From the NCBI GenBank assembly GCA_030158485.1, contig JAOASS010000013.1, forward strand, positions 47,300 to 111,299: 64,000 bases of DNA, read 5' to 3'. Under the pieces are notes generated by a model. It saw only the letters and a program-made list of their open reading frames with translations, searched no databases and was not told the DNA's origin. The translations under genes and the position numbers were made by a program. How positions within the stretch are numbered: the first letter of the stretch is position 1; each line of letters opens with the position of its first letter. The DNA comes from Pseudobdellovibrionaceae bacterium. Its GTDB lineage: Bacteria; Bdellovibrionota; Bdellovibrionia; Bdellovibrionales; Bdellovibrionaceae. Below are positions 2,162 to 30,909 of the stretch, in pieces.

Positions 2162-2761
2162 ATGGGGAATTTAACGGGGCTCTTGTTGCTGTTCTTAAGT
2201 CTTTGCGCAGAAGCTAACAAAGTGACTTGCTTCGAAGACAAAAAAGAAATGCTCATTCCTAACACAAAATACACTCTTACACATCGTGGAGAACTTTTGA
2301 ATGGCACTCAAAAGTTTGCCAATTTACCACTTCCAAAAGGATTTTTAGCAGAATGCCTGCTGAGCTCTTCCATTAAAACTGATGCTCTTGTGATCTTATC
2401 TATGAGCGCAAAAGACTATGATAAAAAAAGTACTTTTGTTTTTAGAATTTCACAAAAAGATTCGAAAGTCTTATGGAGCCAACTGCTGAGCAACCCAGCC
2501 CAACCGAGCCCCGCTTTTATAAATGATAAAATAGTCGCTGTGCCAACTTTAGGACAAGTGGTGGGGCTTAACCCAGAAACCGGAAATATACGCTGGAAGT
2601 TCGGCAATGCAGAAACAGAAGCTTTTGATTTTCATAAAATATCGATCCAAGGGACTTCCACTTTAGTTGCAGAAGGCACCATGACAGGTGCCGGTGTTCG
2701 AACAAATAGTCAGTACGAAATTAATCTTTTTGACGGCAAACTCTTGCCGCCAAAAAAGTAA
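2162..2761 (+). CDS. Exported PQQ-like beta-propeller repeat protein
   Basis: The product is 199 residues and begins with a signal peptide (GLLLLFLSLCAEA). At least one PQQ-type repeat is clear near residues 135-150 (VVGLNPETGNIRWKFG), and a preceding strand set with KVLWSQLL fits the same repeat class. The protein is too short for a complete seven- or eight-bladed propeller, so it is either a small family member or a few blades that pair with a partner. No function can be assigned. The start has no ribosome-binding site, and a -10-like box sits just upstream. The gene converges on the solute-binding protein gene with a 19-bp gap. Confidence 0.6.
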   Translation: MGNLTGLLLLFLSLCAEANKVTCFEDKKEMLIPNTKYTLTHRGELLNGTQKFANLPLPKGFLAECLLSSSIKTDALVILSMSAKDYDKKSTFVFRISQKDSKVLWSQLLSNPAQPSPAFINDKIVAVPTLGQVVGLNPETGNIRWKFGNAETEAFDFHKISIQGTSTLVAEGTMTGAGVRTNSQYEINLFDGKLLPPKK

Positions 2762-2780
2762 TCTTTATTATTAAGTCGAA

Positions 2781-4448
2781 CTAAAATGTCCACTCTTCTA
2801 CATTCAGAGTTTCATAGTATAAATGTCCCGACAAACGAAAATTCTTTAAGCCCGCGGGAATAACTGCATTGTTGGCTCGATAATATAAGGGCAATACTGG
2901 AAGATCTTTTGCGTAAAGATTTAAAAGTTTCTTTCCTAAATCTGCACGTTTTTTACTATCTAATTCAGTTTCCAAACGATCAATTAAGCTATCGACTTCT
3001 TTGTTCTTGTAGCCCGTATAATTTTGGCCTGCTTTTGAATTGGCCACTGTTGGAATGCTTGTCGAATGAAGTACCGATCTGGGACTGTTATCGGGAATCG
3101 AAACCCAACTATAAAGAGCCAAATCAAAATTACGATCTCGAACAGTGTCCCCAAAGAAAACTCGTGCTGGTTCATTTTTGATATTGAGCTGAACACCAAT
3201 GTTTCTCCACTGGTCTTGAATGTAAGTTTCGATATTATCATTCAGCTTCACTCCGGCAACTGCCATGATCGTCAAGCTCAGTTTTTTTCCATTTTTAACG
3301 CGGATACCATCAGCTCCTTTTTTCCAGCCAGCTTCGTCTAAAATTTTATTCGCCGTTCGAGGGCTGTATTCATACTTTTTCACTTGATCTGTGTACCAAG
3401 GGTCTTTTTCAGTTACAAAGTGAGCCGCAATTCGACCTTTGCCTTCCAAAAGAGAATCGATCATTTCTTTTTTATTCAAACCGTAAGCAAGGGCTTGCCT
3501 GACTTGAATGTCAGATAAAATGGAATTGTCTAAATTAAAATCGATATGAGCATAAATCACACCATCTTCAAATACGACTTGATAGGGAATATTTTCTGAT
3601 TTCACTTTTTTATCAAACACCACTGCTTGATCTAAGCTGAATCCACCTGCAGATGAAACCATATTGATACTTTGAGACCTTAAATTGGCTTCGAGTGTTC
3701 CTGTATTCGGAATTAATTTAATCACAATTTTTTTAAACTGAGGTCGCTGACCTTTAAATTGTGGGTTCACAGAAAAAATCACATGACTTCCCAACTTCAC
3801 TTCAGAAATCACATAAGGCCCATTGTAAAGCCCCGGGTTTGTCGGATTTTTTGTGTACAAAGAATTTTGATCGTAGCCTTCAGCTTTTGAGGAATACTTT
3901 GCAAAGATTGGACCTTCTAAGTGTTCAGGCAAAGGGTCCGGAATATTGGCAAAATAATCAAATTTTGCTTTTACAAAAGTGATTGTGCACTTTTGAGGAT
4001 TATTTTTATCAGCCAAAACGCTTGTGATGTTTTCATATTTTTCACGATCTGGTATCGAAACATTTTTTCCCTTGCCCACTTTAACTGAAAATTCAATATC
4101 ACGGCAAGTGACAGGAACACCGTCACCCCACTGCATTTCAGGCCGTATTTCGATTACCATTTCAAGGCCTGGGCCTTTGGGTTTTAAAAGTTTATTTTTA
4201 AGAGTTGGAATTTCCTTAATCATTTGCGGCTTCCACTGCAAATCAGGAGTTAAAATAATCAACGGACGGTGGGCTAAATAGAGCATGTAACGAGTTGCCG
4301 CTTGTGAAGAAATCAGCGGATTTAAGTTTTCGAATTCAGCACCAATTCCGATATTCAAAGTATCCGTTCCCTTGTTTGATGCAGCTGTCGAAACACTTGC
4401 CAAGATGAGAACTAACGTCAGAGCCAATTTTTTGATGATATAAGCCAT
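2781..4448 (-). CDS. Periplasmic peptide/oligopeptide-type substrate-binding protein (SBP family 5)
   Basis: This is a family 5 extracellular solute-binding protein of ABC importers for peptides or similar ligands. Family features include NIGIGAEFENLNPLISSQAA near the mature N-terminus, WGDGVPVTCRDIEFSVK and DIQVRQALAYGLNKKEMID. The start used here is the ATG at 4448, which gives 555 residues and a proper signal peptide (MAYIIKKLALTLVLILASVS, cleaved near STA-AS). A GGAGG lies four bases upstream. A longer frame to 4607 would overlap the photolyase gene and lacks a signal peptide. There is no lipobox, so the protein is probably free in the periplasm. No permease or ATPase genes are adjacent: this is an orphan binding protein. 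Confidence 0.85.
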   Translation of the reverse strand: MAYIIKKLALTLVLILASVSTAASNKGTDTLNIGIGAEFENLNPLISSQAATRYMLYLAHRPLIILTPDLQWKPQMIKEIPTLKNKLLKPKGPGLEMVIEIRPEMQWGDGVPVTCRDIEFSVKVGKGKNVSIPDREKYENITSVLADKNNPQKCTITFVKAKFDYFANIPDPLPEHLEGPIFAKYSSKAEGYDQNSLYTKNPTNPGLYNGPYVISEVKLGSHVIFSVNPQFKGQRPQFKKIVIKLIPNTGTLEANLRSQSINMVSSAGGFSLDQAVVFDKKVKSENIPYQVVFEDGVIYAHIDFNLDNSILSDIQVRQALAYGLNKKEMIDSLLEGKGRIAAHFVTEKDPWYTDQVKKYEYSPRTANKILDEAGWKKGADGIRVKNGKKLSLTIMAVAGVKLNDNIETYIQDQWRNIGVQLNIKNEPARVFFGDTVRDRNFDLALYSWVSIPDNSPRSVLHSTSIPTVANSKAGQNYTGYKNKEVDSLIDRLETELDSKKRADLGKKLLNLYAKDLPVLPLYYRANNAVIPAGLKNFRLSGHLYYETLNVEEWTF

Positions 4449-8185: not shown

Positions 8186-8700
8186 ATTTTATTCCTTTTA
8201 TCAAGACCGTACAAAATGAAGAACAACAAAGCCCAAAATAAACCGTGAAGAGAATAATAAAATAACAAAGGCTCTGAATATTTCAAAACTCCGATTTTTT
8301 CGCCGGCCCAATAAGACAGAGGACCGAATAATGCGGCTAATGGCAATCCCAAAAAGGGCTTCTTGATTATTTTTTCTAATGAATAGGGCACACAGCTCAC
8401 AAAACCCCACCACATACCAAATAGCCAAAAAGTTTCAGTCAAAGTCTTATGTTTCAGAGTAAATAAAATATTTTCAAAAATATAAAAATCAATTAGATAT
8501 CCGCTGATTGCAAAAGACAGCATCATTTTAAAATCTCGCCCTTTATTTTCACTTACAAAGTAAAAATGCAAAACCGAATACAAAATAAAATTAGCGACGA
8601 CTCCTAAAATGTTTTCAGAGTGAGCGCAGATAAAATAAATCCACCAACTGATATGAAATAAAATAATATTTAAAAACTGTTTATTTTTCATTGAACTCAA
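8182..8700 (-). CDS. DUF2878-like integral membrane protein
   Basis: The 172-residue product has five to six hydrophobic helices. The block GLPLAALFGPLSYWAGEKIG near residues 117-136 resembles the signature of DUF2878 membrane proteins as I recall it, and the overall length also matches. The molecular function of that family is unknown; members are often near lipid-modification genes in other proteobacteria (recalled, not checked). The last 4 bp overlap the start of the periplasmic protein gene downstream. The start could be the first ATG (8700) or the second (8691). Confidence 0.6.
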   Translation of the reverse strand: MSSMKNKQFLNIILFHISWWIYFICAHSENILGVVANFILYSVLHFYFVSENKGRDFKMMLSFAISGYLIDFYIFENILFTLKHKTLTETFWLFGMWWGFVSCVPYSLEKIIKKPFLGLPLAALFGPLSYWAGEKIGVLKYSEPLLFYYSLHGLFWALLFFILYGLDKRNKI

Positions 8701-8924
8701 AGCCTGTGTTTTTTATTAATTTTTCTTATCATTCCAGATTAAAAGCCTAAACTGTAAAATGACATCATTCAACGCCACAAGCCAACGCAGACAGTTATAT
8801 TTAAGCTCGCGGTCTTCGCCTCAGCTTTAACTGAAGTGACGTCCCAAAAAAATTGAAAAAATATACTTTGGTCAAGCTTGCTTATTGAGGCTGACGATTC
8901 ATTCTCTTAGTAGGAGGTACAGTT

Positions 8925-9320
8925 ATGGAAATAAGTGAAATGACAATGTCCTATCAAGGTTTTCAGCCATCCGATTTTACAAGAAGCTACTTAGAACAGA
9001 CAATGGCTGAACTCTACAACGAGTCTCCCAATGGTTCATTCTTTCAAGCTGCTTTCAGCCGCCAGAACCATATTTTCAAAGCGCGAATCAGAATTAATTC
9101 TGCAAACGGCCATTTTTTTGCAGTTGCTTCAGGCAAAAAGCTGAAGGATGTGACTCATAAAGTTGCTTTTCAAATTAGAAAGCAATTAGGCAAGTGGAAA
9201 TCATTACGTTTTAATAAACGTCTGGCAAAACAATCTTTTACAGAACTGATAAATGAACTTAAAAAAGAAAGTCAGAGCCTTCAAGAATCGAATAATCAAT
9301 TTTCCGCGAACGCTTCCTGA
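8925..9320 (+). CDS. HPF/RaiA-like ribosome-associated (S30AE-type) protein
   Basis: The 131-residue product starts behind a strong ribosome-binding site (TAGGAGGT). Its core matches the S30AE/hibernation-factor pattern by eye: MSYQGFQPSDFTRSYLEQTM (helix 1), then FKARIRINSANGHFFAVASG (paired strands) and LKDVTHKVAFQIRKQLGKWK (helix 2, basic C-terminus). Family members bind the 30S decoding region and inactivate or protect ribosomes in stationary phase. The short polar C-terminal tail lacks the dimerising domain of long HPF. Family assignment is by pattern, and an alternative role for the fold is possible. Confidence 0.6.
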   Translation: MEISEMTMSYQGFQPSDFTRSYLEQTMAELYNESPNGSFFQAAFSRQNHIFKARIRINSANGHFFAVASGKKLKDVTHKVAFQIRKQLGKWKSLRFNKRLAKQSFTELINELKKESQSLQESNNQFSANAS

Positions 9321-9341
9321 ATAGAAGCGGCACTGGATTTA

Positions 9342-10433
9342 TTAATTTTCAACTGGTTTTGGGTAAACTCGAATAACGGCTCGAACCGGTCGATGATCTG
9401 AAGGAAGTCTTTCCCGATCTTTAAATGTTTGAGGATCGGGAATGATTTCTCCGTTGGCTTTTGTATACTGGACAACTTCAGCCTCTATCACAGAAAGATT
9501 GCCTGCAACTCGGATGTCATCCATTTGTCGTGCCGACTTCCCGTTGGGTCCGAAGTAAAAATGCGTGACACGATTATTCTCGTCGAAAATTTTTCCAGGT
9601 ATGGAATCAAAAACACTCTTTAAAACTTCTCTAATTGAATCCATTTCGGCAGCTCTGATAACATCTGTATTAAAGTCACCACCTAAAATAATGGGAATAT
9701 CTTGTCCATATTTCTCTCGAAGTTCTTCAATAATTTTTTTGACACCTATTTCGTACTGGGCTGTTCGGTACCGAGTACTTTCTTTGTCTCCGGGATTATC
9801 ACGTTTTGATTTGGCATGATTACCTATTACCAGTAAAATTGGTTTTTCATCACCAGGCCGAGTCAAACTCAGAACAGGCAAATCCCTTGAAAAAAGGGGG
9901 TACTCGGTTTTTGTTTTTGGATCAACCCAAATACGATCTTTATAAGAAGTCAGTTTAAATTTGAACCCTAAATCTTTCTTCACACCAATTGTAATGTTGA
10001 TTCCACGATTACTATTTCCTTCTTTTAAAAACATATAGTAATCATTTTGAAGTCCATTTGTTGCCAGATTCATTAAATCCCGAGCATCTTCATCTTTATG
10101 AATTTCAGATCCTATAAAAATATCGGGATCATTTTCTTTAATTATTTCCCTTTGCCAATCCAATTGAGCTGTGGCTTTGAATCTAAACTTTTTATCTTTT
10201 GTCAGAATCTTTGCGTCGCCTCGACGATCTGCGGATTCCTTAATAAAATCATCTTTTAAATTAAAAATAAGGACTTTAAGATCAAGAGGATTTTGGGTGA
10301 AAGCTCGTCCCACACCTAATTGAACACGGCACGACTGAGCCGCACTTGCCGACTGACTAATAACTAGACAGATCGACAGTATTTGCAGGCAAAGTACCAA
10401 CTGAGCAGTTTTAAAAACGTGTTTACGCAACAT
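9342..10433 (-). CDS. Secreted endonuclease/exonuclease/phosphatase (EEP) family protein
   Basis: A metal-dependent phosphoesterase fold (DNase I/sphingomyelinase superfamily). Diagnostic pieces are IFIGSEIHKDEDA (metal-binding Glu), VIGNHAKSKRDN (catalytic His), IILGGDFNTDV (GDFN) and LPSDHRPVRAVI (SDH). I place the start at ATG 10433, giving 363 residues: it has GAGG eight bases upstream and opens a signal peptide (LVLCLQILSICLVISQSASA). A longer frame to 10616 would overlap the methyltransferase gene. Export suggests an extracellular nuclease or phospholipase rather than DNA repair. The substrate is not determinable from sequence alone. Confidence 0.85.
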   Translation of the reverse strand: MLRKHVFKTAQLVLCLQILSICLVISQSASAAQSCRVQLGVGRAFTQNPLDLKVLIFNLKDDFIKESADRRGDAKILTKDKKFRFKATAQLDWQREIIKENDPDIFIGSEIHKDEDARDLMNLATNGLQNDYYMFLKEGNSNRGINITIGVKKDLGFKFKLTSYKDRIWVDPKTKTEYPLFSRDLPVLSLTRPGDEKPILLVIGNHAKSKRDNPGDKESTRYRTAQYEIGVKKIIEELREKYGQDIPIILGGDFNTDVIRAAEMDSIREVLKSVFDSIPGKIFDENNRVTHFYFGPNGKSARQMDDIRVAGNLSVIEAEVVQYTKANGEIIPDPQTFKDRERLPSDHRPVRAVIRVYPKPVEN

Positions 10434-10515
10434 AGGGGACCTCAACTTGTAATAAACGTACTTCTCATAAGATAATCTGCAAATAGACTGCCCGAAAATA
10501 GGCGTCGAATGTGTA

Positions 10516-21213: not shown

Positions 21214-22197
21214 CTATTTTGATAAAATCTGACGACACGACGAAGTTAATGAGTTTTTTTGCCAGGCTTTTAAACGCTGAAAGAAGCCTTGAGTAAATAA
21301 TACGTTGTTATCTGCCATTTCAGGGTGAAATTGCACCAGAAGAACTTGGCGATCACGAGATTCCAAACTCTCTATGACTCCATCAAGACTTCGTGCCGAT
21401 ACTTGAAAAATCGTGCCCGTAACTGAATTCTCGCGGGCTGATTGATGGTGATGACTATCCACAGTATCCTGAGGCAAACCCGTTAAAATATTTTTTAAGA
21501 CTGAATTTTGTGTTTCAGAAAATAGAATCGAATGATGCCCGCCTTTGTTGTGAACTTCTTTGGTCTTAAGATCATAATTCACATCTTGATTTAACTGACC
21601 CCCTAAAGCCGTGAAGACATTTTGCAGCCCACGGCAAACACCCAGTATTTTTCTCTGACTGTTAAAGTAGATAAAGCGGATTAACCGAACTTCTAAAACA
21701 TCTCGAAACCTCTTGGTGTTTATAGACCAAGTCTTTTTCTGCCCGTAAAGGCTGGGATCTAGATCGTCACCACCCATAAAAATAAAAAGCCCAAAATGAA
21801 GACTCAATTCTCGGTAAAATGAATTTTCATCTTGACGATTTAAATTCAAAGCAGCCCCCACAGGAACAACAAAGGTTCGAGAAAAATGTTTCCCAAAATT
21901 ATTCACTCTCTGATGAGAAGGGCTGTGATCAGCTGGGCTGTTCGCCACAAGTAAGGCTCGCTCGTCTGATCCATGACTATCTGTTTTGATACTTCGAAGT
22001 TGGTCGCGGTGAGAGTAAATTGTTGATTGAACAAAAATAGACAGCTTGTGATGATTTTTGACTTTCTGTAGATAGTTTTGCGGGGAAACGCCTTGAGGCA
22101 ACACGTAAGTTAAATCTTGGCCTTCGGGGGACCAAAAAGTAAGCTCTGCTTTGGCGGCCACTACAGTTAGAACAAAAAAAGCAATCAGACGTACCAT
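21214..22197 (-). CDS. Exported class I glutamine amidotransferase-like hydrolase (peptidase C26 type)
   Basis: The family includes gamma-glutamyl hydrolases such as PuuD. Visible active-site parts are MGGDDLDPSLYG (141-151), nucleophile Cys188 in ILGVCRGLQNVF, DSHHHQSAR (248-254) and the His291/Glu293 pair in VQFHPE. A signal peptide (MVRLIAFFVLTVVAAKA) precedes the domain, and about 110 residues of extra N-terminal sequence with no known motif follow it. Export is unusual, since most PuuD-like enzymes are cytoplasmic; secreted gamma-glutamyl hydrolases exist. Likely substrates are gamma-glutamyl compounds such as glutathione- or folate-type peptides (inference). Confidence 0.8.
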   Translation of the reverse strand: MVRLIAFFVLTVVAAKAELTFWSPEGQDLTYVLPQGVSPQNYLQKVKNHHKLSIFVQSTIYSHRDQLRSIKTDSHGSDERALLVANSPADHSPSHQRVNNFGKHFSRTFVVPVGAALNLNRQDENSFYRELSLHFGLFIFMGGDDLDPSLYGQKKTWSINTKRFRDVLEVRLIRFIYFNSQRKILGVCRGLQNVFTALGGQLNQDVNYDLKTKEVHNKGGHHSILFSETQNSVLKNILTGLPQDTVDSHHHQSARENSVTGTIFQVSARSLDGVIESLESRDRQVLLVQFHPEMADNNVLFTQGFFQRLKAWQKNSLTSSCRQILSK

Positions 22198-24476: not shown

Positions 24477-24848
24477 TTAAGCTTCGAAGTCTTTCATTAT
24501 TTTTTCGTACTGTTTGAAGTTTTTAGTGAAAGCTTTTGTGTAATATGTGTTGTAACCAGAAAATAATGTGTCCAAAAACTTATAATACTCTTGATATAAA
24601 AAATTTCCCATGAATTTACCGTAAAATTCACGAGGAGCATTTTTGCTGTAATCAAATTTACGGTAAAAAGAAGCGACATATTTATTAAAACTTGTCCACC
24701 ATTTACGAGCTTCTTTAGCGTTGATAAAGTTTCCAACGAAATAAGTTTTTCCACCAGATGTTAAACCAACTTCGTATCCCTTGCCCGCGGTTTTGTAATA
24801 TGTTTTGAATGCAAAACCTGCAAATTCATAATCCTTAAATTCAGTCAT
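24477..24848 (-). CDS. Phe/Tyr-rich small protein, unknown function
   Basis: I start at ATG 24848, behind GGGAG, giving 123 residues (MTEFKDYEFAGFAF...). Counting by hand, 17 Phe, 16 Tyr and 2 Trp make up 28% of the chain, mixed with many Lys. There is no signal peptide or membrane segment; the residues are spread in patterns such as WWTSFNKYVASFYRKFDY. It could be a helical, self-associating structural or storage-granule protein, but no family is recognised. The gene has its own terminator and a strong ribosome-binding site, hinting at high expression. Confidence 0.65.
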   Translation of the reverse strand: MTEFKDYEFAGFAFKTYYKTAGKGYEVGLTSGGKTYFVGNFINAKEARKWWTSFNKYVASFYRKFDYSKNAPREFYGKFMGNFLYQEYYKFLDTLFSGYNTYYTKAFTKNFKQYEKIMKDFEA

Positions 24849-25034
24849 GTGACTCCCTATTCTTCGGTCGTTAATTCGACCGATTTTCATTCCATTCACG
24901 ATTGCTACATTTGTCACCACTTTTTTGCAGCCTGGACTTTTGTATTTGAGTGAACTGGACCGAAAATAAGACTCTCAACAATAAAATAACTTTACCTTTA
25001 CCTTTAAAATAAGGATTTAAACGCTCAAAATCGA

Positions 25035-27182
25035 CTACCGAATTTGCATAAATGAAGACTTTTTAAAACTTTCACACTGTTCTTCAGTTAGATGATCATT
25101 AAGAAGTGTGATCTCATCTGAAAGTAAATTAGGGTTCCTGGATTCCGTATGACCACAATCACAAAGTAGATGGGCCACTTCGTGAGCCACTGGATTGTAG
25201 GACCGTGGAATACTCGATTGATAAGCAGGCGTCATGATAATTTGACTGATCCACCCAGTCCACATCAAGGGAGCCATGGGTGAACCTTCCGCAATATTGC
25301 TCGTGTAAACTTCTGAAGTATTATCGGCCCCCATAAAAAATAAAGCTGGTTTTAAACTTTCAGGTAAGGTCGATACAATCTCAACGTCATGGGGTCTTGT
25401 GTATTGAGTATGCCCAAATGGTGGTTCGATTACTTCAAGTCTCACCGGAGACGGTTCGATTTGACATTGCTTTAAAATTTCTCGTGTGCGGTTGATTTGG
25501 CTCATCACTTGCTCTCGAGTCCAGCCAGTCCCTTTCACCATAAAAATCGAAAGGGGAAAAAAATATTTTTCCTGCGGTTTTGAATATAAAAACTCTATCG
25601 AATCAGTTTTATATCCTGATTTAACACTTGTTATGTCTTCAGGTAACGCTGAAAAATTAGTTTTAGTCCAAGGACCCCAAAAATCTGTTCGTATCGCTGA
25701 TAGGTCCACTTCACCTTTTTCTGTCAAATCAAAAGTGTGAGACAAAATGCCCACCAGTTTCAGTGTCTGATCAGGGGCTAAAGCTTTTAGATCACCCGTT
25801 GCTTCAAAAATGGGAGAGCCTGAAGCTAAATACCACCCAGGCAAAGTCGATTCATAAAGCTGACCCAAATAGTGCGGCAAAAGCGAACTGATTTCACCTG
25901 ACCTTCCAGTTGTCTCTCCGTAAGAAAAAAGTCTTGAAGTCTCTCGTGCTTTTTGTGGTAAAGAATAACCGACTGAAAATACTTTTTGTCCAGGCTGCTG
26001 AAAGTTTTTTGAAGTTAAATCAAATTTGGGTATTTTAATTTTACCCAATGTCAGTGAAGGTTCATAAAGAATGAGGGCCCAGTCATTCGATCCAGAAATT
26101 TCCGAAATTGATTTTATCTGAGTTCCCGTAATAGAAATTGGTTCAGCTTTATCTTGAGAATAAAATTCCAAAGTCACGTAGTTGGGGCCAATTAATGTCA
26201 AAAGCTTTTGTCCCTGAACCATTTGTCGAAAACAATGTTTAGCTGTTAAAGCTTGACCATGATTTAAAATAAAAATGGTACACAAAGGCTGCGACTGAAA
26301 AAGCATTCTTCCGACAAACTCAAAATTTTCAGTCAAATTTCGGTTCTGACTTTCAATAGCCTGAACATTTGCCTTCGGCTTCAATAAAAATCTAAATTCA
26401 GTACGCTTAATAAACTGATAAACTGAATCGGAAAGCTGCTCAGATAAACTCGGGTTATAAATTAAGTAGGTCAGTACTTCGACAACAAATTCCTCAATCT
26501 GAGTTGTCGCATAAAGCGAAGGAAAACCAATTTTTTGGGCTGTTTGAGTATCCAGCTCTAATGCTTGCTGTTTTTTTCCAGAAACAATCATATCACGAGT
26601 CTGAGAAAATATTTTATTGATCTCACTTGTTCGAGACAAATAATGGGACTTATGTGCACTTGTCCAATCGGTTGCTTTTCTTGCCGCAACCCAAAATGGT
26701 GATAAGTAATAGTCTTTACCGTATTTAAGTGAAAGATAAAAATGTAATAACTCATGTGTCAGAGTATGGGTTTTTTCTGACGAACCAGTGTATTGAATAT
26801 CTTCTGACAAAAGGCGAGTCGAAATAAAAATAACTTTTTGCCCATTAAAGTTCTGAGACGCAGCTTCCATTTGCGGATCATCTAATTTAACTAAATAAAT
26901 AGGTCCTTTTGAAGCTGCTTTCAAAGCTCTCAGTACAGGCCCCATGAATCCCCATTTAATTTGCGCCAAAGCTTTTTTCATCGAAATGACTTCGGAAGAA
27001 GTCCAGTCTCGATAAAGATCAGGATAAACAGAGCACAATGTTTGAAACTCGGGATTCTTTTTACAATTCGAAGTATTAAAAAATTCGAAATGCAAAGTAT
27101 TAGCATCTTGCACTTTTGGCGTAGCTAGCGCTTCCAAATTAAAAAAAAGACCGAGGGTCGCAATAAAAAAGAGTTTATTCAT
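25035..27182 (-). CDS. Exported multi-domain protein with two HExxH sites and a trypsin-like domain
   Basis: The 715-residue product has a signal peptide (MNKLFFIATLGLFFNLEALA). Three protease-like regions follow. Residues about 90-245 hold LTHELLHFYL (His143, Glu144, His147) with a possible third ligand in EEFVVE (230-235). Residues about 285-500 are trypsin-like: LTAKHC (His316), GSNDWALI (Asp367) and YLASGSPIF (Ser454; the usual GDSGG/GDSGS is changed). Residues about 540-715 contain NPVAHEVAHLLCDCGH (His667, Glu668, His671, His678), then NPNLLSD. Whether all three are active is unknown. The gene stands alone. Confidence 0.7.
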   Translation of the reverse strand: MNKLFFIATLGLFFNLEALATPKVQDANTLHFEFFNTSNCKKNPEFQTLCSVYPDLYRDWTSSEVISMKKALAQIKWGFMGPVLRALKAASKGPIYLVKLDDPQMEAASQNFNGQKVIFISTRLLSEDIQYTGSSEKTHTLTHELLHFYLSLKYGKDYYLSPFWVAARKATDWTSAHKSHYLSRTSEINKIFSQTRDMIVSGKKQQALELDTQTAQKIGFPSLYATTQIEEFVVEVLTYLIYNPSLSEQLSDSVYQFIKRTEFRFLLKPKANVQAIESQNRNLTENFEFVGRMLFQSQPLCTIFILNHGQALTAKHCFRQMVQGQKLLTLIGPNYVTLEFYSQDKAEPISITGTQIKSISEISGSNDWALILYEPSLTLGKIKIPKFDLTSKNFQQPGQKVFSVGYSLPQKARETSRLFSYGETTGRSGEISSLLPHYLGQLYESTLPGWYLASGSPIFEATGDLKALAPDQTLKLVGILSHTFDLTEKGEVDLSAIRTDFWGPWTKTNFSALPEDITSVKSGYKTDSIEFLYSKPQEKYFFPLSIFMVKGTGWTREQVMSQINRTREILKQCQIEPSPVRLEVIEPPFGHTQYTRPHDVEIVSTLPESLKPALFFMGADNTSEVYTSNIAEGSPMAPLMWTGWISQIIMTPAYQSSIPRSYNPVAHEVAHLLCDCGHTESRNPNLLSDEITLLNDHLTEEQCESFKKSSFMQIR

Positions 27183-27487: not shown

Positions 27488-27564
27488 TGGTCGGCGTGGC
27501 GGGATTTGAACCCACGACCCCTTGCACCCCAAGCAAGTGCGCTACCAGGCTGCGCTACACGCCG
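27488..27564 (-). tRNA. tRNA-Pro (anticodon GGG), CCA encoded
   Basis: Folding the minus strand gives a 7-bp acceptor (CGGCGTG with CACGCCG), a D stem GCGC/GCGC, an anticodon stem CTTGC/GCAAG with loop TTGGGGT (anticodon GGG), and a T arm GTGGG-TTCAAAT-CCCGC. The discriminator A and the CCA end are encoded. The 5' end lies 7 bp after the merR-type gene stop codon, so the tRNA may be cut from the pheST-ihfA mRNA or have a promoter inside merR. Confidence 0.97.
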
Positions 27565-28470: not shown

Positions 28471-30909
28471 TTAACGGAGTGCGATAGAGTACCGAGCTTT
28501 GAGCTCTTCCAATAGTTTTTGCTGTAGCGCGTTTACGCGATCTTCTTGCAATGTGTTTTCACGATCTTGAAGCACCAGTCTTAAGGCAACAGACTTCTGC
28601 CCTTTTTCAAGGGGAGTTCCTTCAAAAACGTCGATCACTTTCAAATCGATCAGCAGGGCGCCTGATTGATGTCGAATCGTCTTGATCACGTCGCCTACAC
28701 CCAAATCACTCGGCATCACGAAAGCCAAGTCCCGCTCAACAGAAGGGAATTTAGATGGGGTCTGAGATTTTAATTTTAGCGCTGGTCTTTTAAAAAGACG
28801 ATCGATTTCAATTTCAAAAAGTGCAGCTGGTACTCGAATCTTATTTTCATCTGAAAGTCTGGGGTGAAGAGTGCCGATAAATCCAACCGGCTGTCCTTCA
28901 AGCTCGATGATGGCCCACTGACTTCGATGTAAAAAATCAGGCGCCTGAAAGACTTTGTCCACTTTAAATTCAAACGAGCTTAATTGATTTTTCTTGGCCC
29001 AAACTTCGAGTGCACCTTTTAGTTTAAAAACCGGAGACTCGTGGTTTTGCTTGCCCCACAAATCCTGAGGCAAACCCCAAGTCAAACCCCCAAGCCGTGT
29101 ACTTTCATGCAAGGCTCCGTTTACTTTCGAGAAACAAGAACCCGTTTCAAATAAATGTCCTTGGCCCTGACCATGGCGGTAATTATGAAGCGTGTTCACG
29201 AAAAGCCCATAAGAAAGGCTCGAGCGCATGACGTTCAGTTCTTCATTCAAAGGATTCACTAAAGCAATCGGATCAGAAGTGATCTGAAGCCCCAACGCTT
29301 TTAAAGAAGCAACATCACCCAAAAAAGATTTTTCTTTCTGACTTGAACAAAAAGCAAAGTTAACCGCTTGAGCAAAACCTAAATTTGAAAATGTTTGAGC
29401 TGTCATTTTCAAATTCAAATACTTCGAATCATGTTGAGAAGGTTCTTTATCAAACTGAGGCAAAGATTCAGGAATATTTTCATAGCCGTTTAATCTTGCG
29501 TACTCTTCAACAAAATCCATTTCATGAAATAAATCTTGGCGAAACGATGGGGGAATTAAAGTCAAGACTCCTTCATTTTCACTTTCAATTTTTAAATGTA
29601 ATCTTTTTGCAAATTCTTTGATGTTTTCTAACGTGGCCTGATAACCCAATCTGTCACTGATTAAATCTGCTGAGACTTTCATTTTGCGATTCAGCGGAAT
29701 TCGGTTGTCAATATCGACATAATCTTCAGCCATTTTTCCGCCCGTGACTTTCACAATCATTTCACAAGCTTTCGCCAAAGCACGCTCTGTAAATGAAGAA
29801 TCAATTCCCCGAGCGAATCGGTAAGATGAATCTGTTTCAATTCCAAAAGTCCGAGCTGTTTTGCGAACAGACTGCGGAGCAAATGTCGCAGCTTCAAGAA
29901 AAATATTTTTCGTATCGATGTGGGTTCCCGAACTCAATCCCCCGATGACTCCCGCCAAACAAAGAGTCCGAGCTGAATCTCGGATTCCTAAGTTTTCGGA
30001 TTTCAGATTCAGTTCAGTGCCATCAAGAGTTTTAAACTTTTCATCTTGCGGAGCCCGCTCAACAAAAATGACTCCCGATTGAATTTGGTCCGCATCGAAA
30101 GCATGCAGTGGCTGCCCCAATTCGATTAAAATGTAATTTGTGATATCCACGACATTGTTGATTGATTTTAAACCGACACTTTCAATTTTTCTTCGAAGCC
30201 AGCCAGGACTGCCACCAATCCGAACATTTTCAATCAACCGACCCATGTAGCGTGGGGCTAAGTCCGGAGCTTTCACACTGACTTTAATTTTTCCACTTTG
30301 AGTCGACTTTGTACCCCTTAATTCAGGAGTCAAATCTTTCACGTCTTTTTTTAAAAGGGCTGCAATTTCACGAGCCAATCCAAAATGACTTAAACCGTCG
30401 GCTCTATTGGGAGTGACTTTCAATTCAAAAATCACATCATCAAGTCCCCAAAATTCGGCAAATGAGACGCCCACTGGCGCATCGGGATCAAGAATAACAA
30501 TGCCATCCGTATTTCCAGTTAAACCCAATTCCTTATAAGAACAAAGCATTCCACCGGACTCAACACCTCGAATGGAAGATTTTTTAATCGCGAAATTTCC
30601 AGGTAAAATGGCGCCGGGCAAAGCGACAATCACACGATCACCAGCTTTGTGATTTTGAGCACCACAAATAATTTGATGAACTTGATTTTGTCCCGTACTG
30701 ACTCGACAAAGACTGAGCTTGTCAGCGTTTGGATGTTTATCTTTTTCTAAAATATGCCCGACAACGACCATCGAGAACTGCTTTCGATGGTCGTGAATCG
30801 CTTCGACTTCAAATCCCGCACGAGTCAGAATTTCGGCGAGTTCTTCGGGCCTGTTCATATAAGATTCGATATCAACAAATTCTTGAATCCAACGTAATGA
30901 TAATTTCAT
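28471..30909 (-). CDS. pheT: Phenylalanine-tRNA ligase beta subunit
   Basis: The 812 residues show the full bacterial order: N-terminal B1, tRNA-binding EMAP-like domain ([20 protein letters not shown]), B3/B4 with editing site ([20 protein letters not shown]), B5, catalytic-like core and the C-terminal anticodon-binding ferredoxin-fold domain ([15 protein letters not shown]). Its ATG overlaps the pheS stop by 4 bp, ensuring coupled synthesis of the alpha2-beta2 enzyme. ihfA follows after 70 bp. Confidence 0.97.

Follow-up and report, generated by a model that had tools for sequence, protein, structure and literature searches.

Why should a bacterium place two zinc-protease motifs and a trypsin-like triad on one presumably secreted chain, and which of the three parts cut proteins? 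The question is raised by a gene for a 715 amino acid protein in a 64,000 nucleotide stretch, here called the window, of a Pseudobdellovibrionaceae genome (assembly GCA_030158485.1, contig JAOASS010000013.1). A sequence-only reading had described the product as a single exported protein with three protease-like active sites, either a self-activating secreted enzyme or a set of scaffold domains; what it observed is confirmed, and its interpretation is partly supported by the analysis below. We propose, with moderate confidence, that the gene encodes a probably exported polyprotease composed of a gluzincin-like module (N), an S1 trypsin-like module (S) and a module of predicted metzincin fold (C), and that N and S at least probably act as proteases outside the cytoplasm.

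One chain with three modules

The gene is a single open frame on the minus strand at the place given by the sequence-only reading (Table 1), and the residues named there are all present: H143, E144 and H147 of a HELLH motif, H316, D367 and S454 of the triad, with GDSG altered to ASGS at the serine (LASGSP), and H667, E668, H671 and H678 of the second zinc motif, followed by PNLL at 684–687. A computed listing places HExxH only at 143 and 667 of the chain, and at least two such motifs arise in 2 of 20,000 shuffles of the same residues, which together with the conservation of the catalytic residues rules out chance motifs. That two or three genes have been misread as one is ruled out by the single frame and by a relative, P0002 (698 amino acids, 57% identity), that has the same three parts in the same order. 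The GC content of the gene is 38%, against 40% for the window.

Relatives of the whole chain are few. A set of 5.8 billion proteins was searched by scoring the 7997 entries with most words in common with the query. Apart from the query itself, these best 7997 include two relatives: P0002, the one full-length relative, and P0003 (487 amino acids, 47% identity), whose recorded sequence stops behind the trypsin-like part. N (residues 31–268) is 57.1% identical to P0002, S (285–515) 58.4% and C (539–708) 65.1%, whereas the two linkers are 25.0% and 26.1% identical, a difference that indicates three conserved modules on two loosely kept connectors. Profiles for N, S and C match residues 12–271, 258–521 and 526–713 respectively, the gene itself being a member of each profile.

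As the sequence-only reading had supposed, no standard family with this order of modules emerges: an NCBIfam scan of the chain returns one match, to an unrelated model at E 0.2, and sequence searches of the PDB give nothing convincing (best E 0.85, and 0.13 in another search), so that neither offers a known multi-protease family as the identity of the protein. Pfam applied to the whole chain places a trypsin-like domain at 285–465 and, in the N part, sub-threshold SprT-like and Peptidase_Mx1 signals only. The expectation of zincin-like and chymotrypsin-like folds held for the C module, for which a metzincin fold is predicted; a Foldseek search with the full-length chain has no match at E ≤ 1e-3, and its rows for N and S, which reach no further than the families listed, are hints only.

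The N module

All 7 aligned N sequences keep H143, E144, H147, E231 and E235 of the first zinc site, and HExxH is present in all 18 N rows that span the site (two of which are the window gene). The third zinc ligand had been sought at a Glu within 230–235; two invariant Glu residues do lie there, and E231 is probably the better placed of them. A strict E-x-F/Y-A/V/S-E pattern is found in 15 of the 18 rows, the exceptions being the two rows of the window gene (EEFVVE) and L079. An HExxH followed downstream by such a Glu is what Peptidase_Mx1/ATLF-like gluzincins have, and on sequence grounds we predict a zinc site of that kind. Matches to the Peptidase_Mx1/ATLF/PPEP kind of gluzincin are weak in both profile and fold, and Peptidase_Mx1 itself stays below its curated cut-off of 25.6 bits (13.7 bits with the N module, 12 with the whole chain).

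Folds of these kinds might serve something other than proteolysis, as they would in an HExxH oxygenase or in a hydrolase of another sort. We think this very improbable: each of the other five listed rows is a peptidase or part of one, a Glu beyond HExxH is what gluzincins would show, and S and C match protease families. The lethal factor rows among the five align to residues 27–252, which are not known as the catalytic part of lethal factor.

Possible activity of the S and C modules

The S module scores 25.3 bits with PF00089 (Trypsin), above the cut-off of 20.6, and 27.4 bits with PF13365 (Trypsin_2), just below the cut-off of 27.6; V8 and Spl proteases are among its listed fold matches, none of which reaches E ≤ 1e-3 in the full-length search. 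Eleven of 12 aligned rows have the triad His and Asp, and the remaining one is a fragment that lacks the region; the Ser occurs in all 12. The triad is intact in the window chain, P0002 and P0003 alike.

For the C module the structure predicted from residues 520–715 has the metzincin fold, and none of H667, E668, H671 and H678 varies among the 11 aligned rows, of which the window chain is one. A census of the family gave 87 rows, of which eight were dropped as weaker than E 1e-6, off the site or duplicate. HExxH is present in 79 of the remaining 79, although 18 of these were fetched by a pattern containing AHExxH and so have the motif by construction; the other 61 were not selected in this way. 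A third His follows after a gap of 6–8 residues in 70 rows, eight combine the classical +10 spacing with an LM turn, and one match stops directly behind HExxH. The classical HExxHxxGxxH/D is absent from the window chain, where HEVAHLLCDCGH puts the third His at +11 with no Gly at the usual place; the Met-turn methionine is likewise replaced, the putative turn reading NPNLL here, NLM in many relatives and NLL, NIL or similar in others. In the members scanned, the C part scores below cut-off with every Pfam and NCBIfam model.

Several of these observations weigh against a chain whose parts are all active. The G-x-S-G-G motif of the oxyanion hole and serine is lacking in all three fused chains, which read LASGS(P), whereas the other nine S rows have xSGG and eight of the nine have Gly two residues before the Ser; the substitution of Leu for the usual oxyanion Gly, and the Ala that precedes the Ser, suggest an altered or weaker serine protease. 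In P0002, which is outside the 79-row count, the C site reads DPVAHLLCDCGH, with four residues including HE lost, and so the HEVAH site, whose conservation the sequence-only reading had made a test along with that of the other motifs, is broken in that relative, while the N and S residues and the HExxH of the wider C family are kept. The case for C as an active unit is weakened because of this loss, though the residues are kept in the window chain and in the family; the main support for N and S as active units is that their catalytic residues are kept in all three fused chains.

These observations could instead mean that the chain is partly a pseudo-enzyme, in which one module, most likely N, cuts, and S, C or both are non-catalytic binding or folding parts. 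The remainder of the C module is conserved in P0002 despite the loss of HE, LASGSP replaces GxSGGP in every fused chain, and there is a precedent in polyserase-2, only the first of whose three domains is active (PMC1435904). On the other side stand the intact triads and the three His and the Glu retained at the C site of the window chain. Moreover, SGSP also occurs in a trypsin-like fragment of the sister genome G001 (L173:7818–8357, reading GNSGSP), so that the end of the altered motif has a parallel elsewhere, and the P0002 loss falls within a VAHE/VAH near-repeat, where either a recent slip or an error of assembly may account for it. We regard a partly pseudo-enzymatic chain as rather unlikely, and retain the polyprotease with N and S active as our working interpretation.

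Predicted export, linkers and possible maturation

The amino terminus has, by eye, the features of a signal peptide (K3, a hydrophobic run and A18-L19-A20), and the highest mean hydropathy over 19 residues, 1.56, begins at residue 4, with a maximum of 0.99 past residue 25. Of the eight cysteines in the chain, N and S contain two each and C four. All 7 N rows keep C40 and C50, all 11 C rows keep C573 and C703, and C301 and C317 of S are kept in every row that covers them (11 of 12). This pattern would fit export of the protein, with one disulfide or more in each module.

A plausible course of events is that the chain leaves the cytoplasm via Sec and folds as three separate beads, each with its conserved cysteine pair, divided by two short and fast-changing linkers. 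Three cutters of unlike chemistry on one secreted chain would allow a substrate to be cut at sites of several kinds, and the modules could be released if the linkers were cleaved, whether by the chain or by a different protease. The role of such an enzyme may be the digestion of prey or of environmental protein.

A stricter form of linker cleavage is a self-activating or self-inhibiting cascade, in which the uncut chain is latent until a linker is cut by one module and a second module is thereby switched on, much as the sequence-only reading had proposed. The two short variable linkers between conserved modules would suit it, as would the close adjoining of the modules, between which separate propeptides would hardly fit. 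The sequence, however, allows neither a cleavage site nor a propeptide to be demonstrated. Trypsin-type zymogen activation uses an Asp before the catalytic Ser; this residue is Ala before Ser454, which speaks against activation in the manner of trypsin, and we consider a cascade improbable for the polyprotease that we propose.

Distribution of the three modules

The separated C and N pieces have no match at E ≤ 1e-3 in the 5.8-billion-protein set, and the relatives described here are thus from whole-genome searches. An alignment of the three fused chains finds matches in 16 of 143 genomes of the class: the window genome has all three parts, G098 has S and C on separate contigs, and 14 have one family each. 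With module profiles over 368 genomes of the phylum (Bdellovibrionota), C is found in 70 (at E ≤ 0.001, the weakest matches being partial only), N in 27 and S in 8, window genome included. No other genome of the 368 has two families in one frame, judging by the listed places, and the other two genomes of the window's genus have no match, one of them (G002) being only 67% complete. Contig G090:C474, from a genome of the window's order, is the same sequence as CAJYOV010000474.1 of a Bdellovibrionaceae metagenome-assembled genome (MAG), which identifies the phylum as Bdellovibrionota.

Where two families do share a genome they lie at separate places: S and C in G098 and G204, N and a weak S in G144, N and C in G177, and weak matches to N together with C in G075 and G168. 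Each of the three module types also occurs alone in related bacteria. An operon of three separate genes is found in none of the relatives, as no locus among L001–L168 except that of the window carries two families (flanks mostly 1.5–5 kb). The nearest to such a case is L161, in which an open reading frame (ORF) like a zinc protease with HELGHH (2–1402) immediately precedes, in the same orientation, a gene of S type that is separate from it (from 1414). Two further arrangements were seen by the way: L058 (G216) has two C-type metzincin genes close together (1252–2178 and 2606–3610), and L088:1156–3087 encodes a 643 amino acid chain that fuses DUF7844 to an Lnb_N domain.

Re-pairing of the C module

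The C module has other enzyme-like partners elsewhere. In four chains from gammaproteobacterial or proteobacterial MAGs (L104, L107, L111 and L118; 615–643 amino acids) it stands at the carboxy terminus behind a subtilase-like part, with Peptidase_S8 at E 2e-23, 8.7e-25 and 7.8e-21 in L104, L111 and L118 respectively, L107 resembling L104 by eye. In L052, L054 and L024/L035 the C module is followed by a second HExxH domain of about 300 residues with, by eye, an (H/Q)ELFAD motif; no Pfam model reaches its cut-off for this domain in the two chains scanned. In L059:1405–2553 the domain behind the C module matches N-terminal glutamine amidase below threshold (E 2.8e-4, 20.9 bits against a cut-off of 27), and L060:559–1674 resembles it by eye with no Pfam match of its own. 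The second domains of L059 and L060 have, by eye, a common CSRN...SWKFHAF pattern. Altogether 10 of the 79 C rows, window gene included, have a second enzyme-like domain, a number obtained by ORF length and inspection rather than by a scan of all 79.

In hhalign comparisons a common origin of N and the second zinc domain of L052, L054 and L024 is unsupported (probability 0.4%), N against C gives 1.2%, and C against the second zinc domain of the L052-type chains gives 24.1% over 16 columns around HExxH only. We suggest, tentatively and as a possibility that we would not yet call probable, that the C module is a roaming metzincin repeatedly joined to secreted enzymes, namely a gluzincin and S1 in the window, subtilisin in gammaproteobacteria, and a second HExxH domain or a glutamine-amidase-like domain elsewhere. 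Such joining would build mixed-clan polyproteases that mature by cuts in their own linkers, a bacterial counterpart of the polyserases.

Coordinates and genomic surroundings

Table 1. Positions in the window of the gene, its modules and motifs, and its neighbours
Feature	Position	Strand	Basis
Whole gene, three protease-type modules, 715 amino acids	25035..27182	minus	one frame, ATG start
Predicted Sec signal peptide, residues 1–20 (A18-L19-A20, then T21)	27123..27182	minus	by eye; putative cleavage
N module, residues 31–268, gluzincin-like zinc domain, C40 and C50 pair	26379..27092	minus	profiles, conservation
HELLH, residues 143–147	26742..26756	minus	conserved
E231–E235 (EFVVE), presumed third zinc ligand E231	26478..26492	minus	both Glu invariant 7/7
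Variable linker, residues 269–284	26331..26378	minus	4/16 identical to P0002
S module, residues 285–515, S1 (trypsin-like) domain	25638..26330	minus	Pfam, profile, triad
His316 codon (TAKHC; C301-C317 likely disulfide)	26235..26237	minus	motif columns
Asp367 codon (NDWA)	26082..26084	minus	motif columns
Ser454 codon (LASGSP)	25821..25823	minus	motif columns
Variable linker, residues 516–538	25569..25637	minus	6/23 identical to P0002
C module, residues 539–708, predicted metzincin fold	25059..25568	minus	model built on 520–715
HEVAHLLCDCGH, residues 667–678, presumed zinc site of C module	25149..25184	minus	conserved residues
NPNLL, residues 683–687, metzincin Met-turn position, Leu where Met usual	25122..25136	minus	putative turn
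tRNA-Pro (ggg), next gene upstream	27488..27564	minus	same tRNA followed by integrase element in G001
Short ORF on other side of gene	24477..24920

The tRNA-Pro spot next to the gene has received mobile DNA in G001, the sister genome. There the same tRNA is followed by an element (L173:5608–11002) with a phage-type integrase (PF00589, E 5.5e-23) and a 14-base repeat at the tRNA end (L173:5608). The element also holds a helix-turn-helix-like ORF (by eye), the trypsin-like fragment mentioned above, an HExxH protein with a likely signal (8415–9464; Peptidase_Mx1 23.3 bits, cut-off 25.6) and a further ORF with a likely signal (9448–10467). In the window the sole repeat of at least 12 bases is a 12-mer on the opposite strand at 30808. 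With no 14-base repeat of the G001 type, a recent island at this tRNA, and with it mobility of the gene, is unsupported. Elsewhere in the window, 21214–22197 encodes a protein like a class I glutamine amidotransferase (GVCRG and QFHPE by eye) with an apparent signal peptide, which seems unusual for that fold.

Comparison with known systems

Taken singly, each module resembles a known kind of peptidase with some departures. N is like the Peptidase_Mx1/ATLF/PPEP gluzincins in its HExxH and its downstream Glu within an ExFAE-like motif, and differs in that no such Pfam model reaches its cut-off and its own fold is modelled with little confidence. S is like S1 peptidases (PF00089/PF13365) in its Pfam match, its triad and TAxHC with a Cys pair, and differs in LASGSP for GxSGGP and in its place between two zinc modules. 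C is like metzincins such as the adamalysins (snake venom metalloproteinases) and fragilysin in its predicted fold, HExxH helix, third His and the position of an N-L-(L/M) turn; it differs in the +11 spacing, the lack of the usual Gly, Leu for the turn Met and the want of a family model at cut-off. The S8 chains described above end in the same C-type metzincin as the window chain, with an S8 partner in place of a gluzincin and S1.

If active, the chain would be a compact enzyme of several specificities and a natural test of why proteases fuse. Naming the C family would annotate many unknown proteins of predator-related bacteria. The 'modular proteases' of PMC10084794 are, in the passages concerned, a protease with binding domains rather than several proteases per chain. 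Among the literature matches listed, with most subscription papers outside their scope, none describes two zinc-protease folds joined to a trypsin-like unit in one bacterial chain; repeats of a single protease kind within a chain are already known. According to PMC1435904, angiotensin-converting enzyme (ACE) and carboxypeptidase D have two or three metalloproteinase domains per chain, one of them inactive in carboxypeptidase D; these are human, membrane-bound and repeat one kind of domain, whereas the window chain mixes kinds. Another parallel there is with the human polyserases 1–3, which have several protease domains per chain, all of them serine proteases, those of polyserase-1 being released as separate units. 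A chain of several proteases is thus common to both, and the window chain differs in being bacterial and in combining two kinds of zinc protease with a serine protease.
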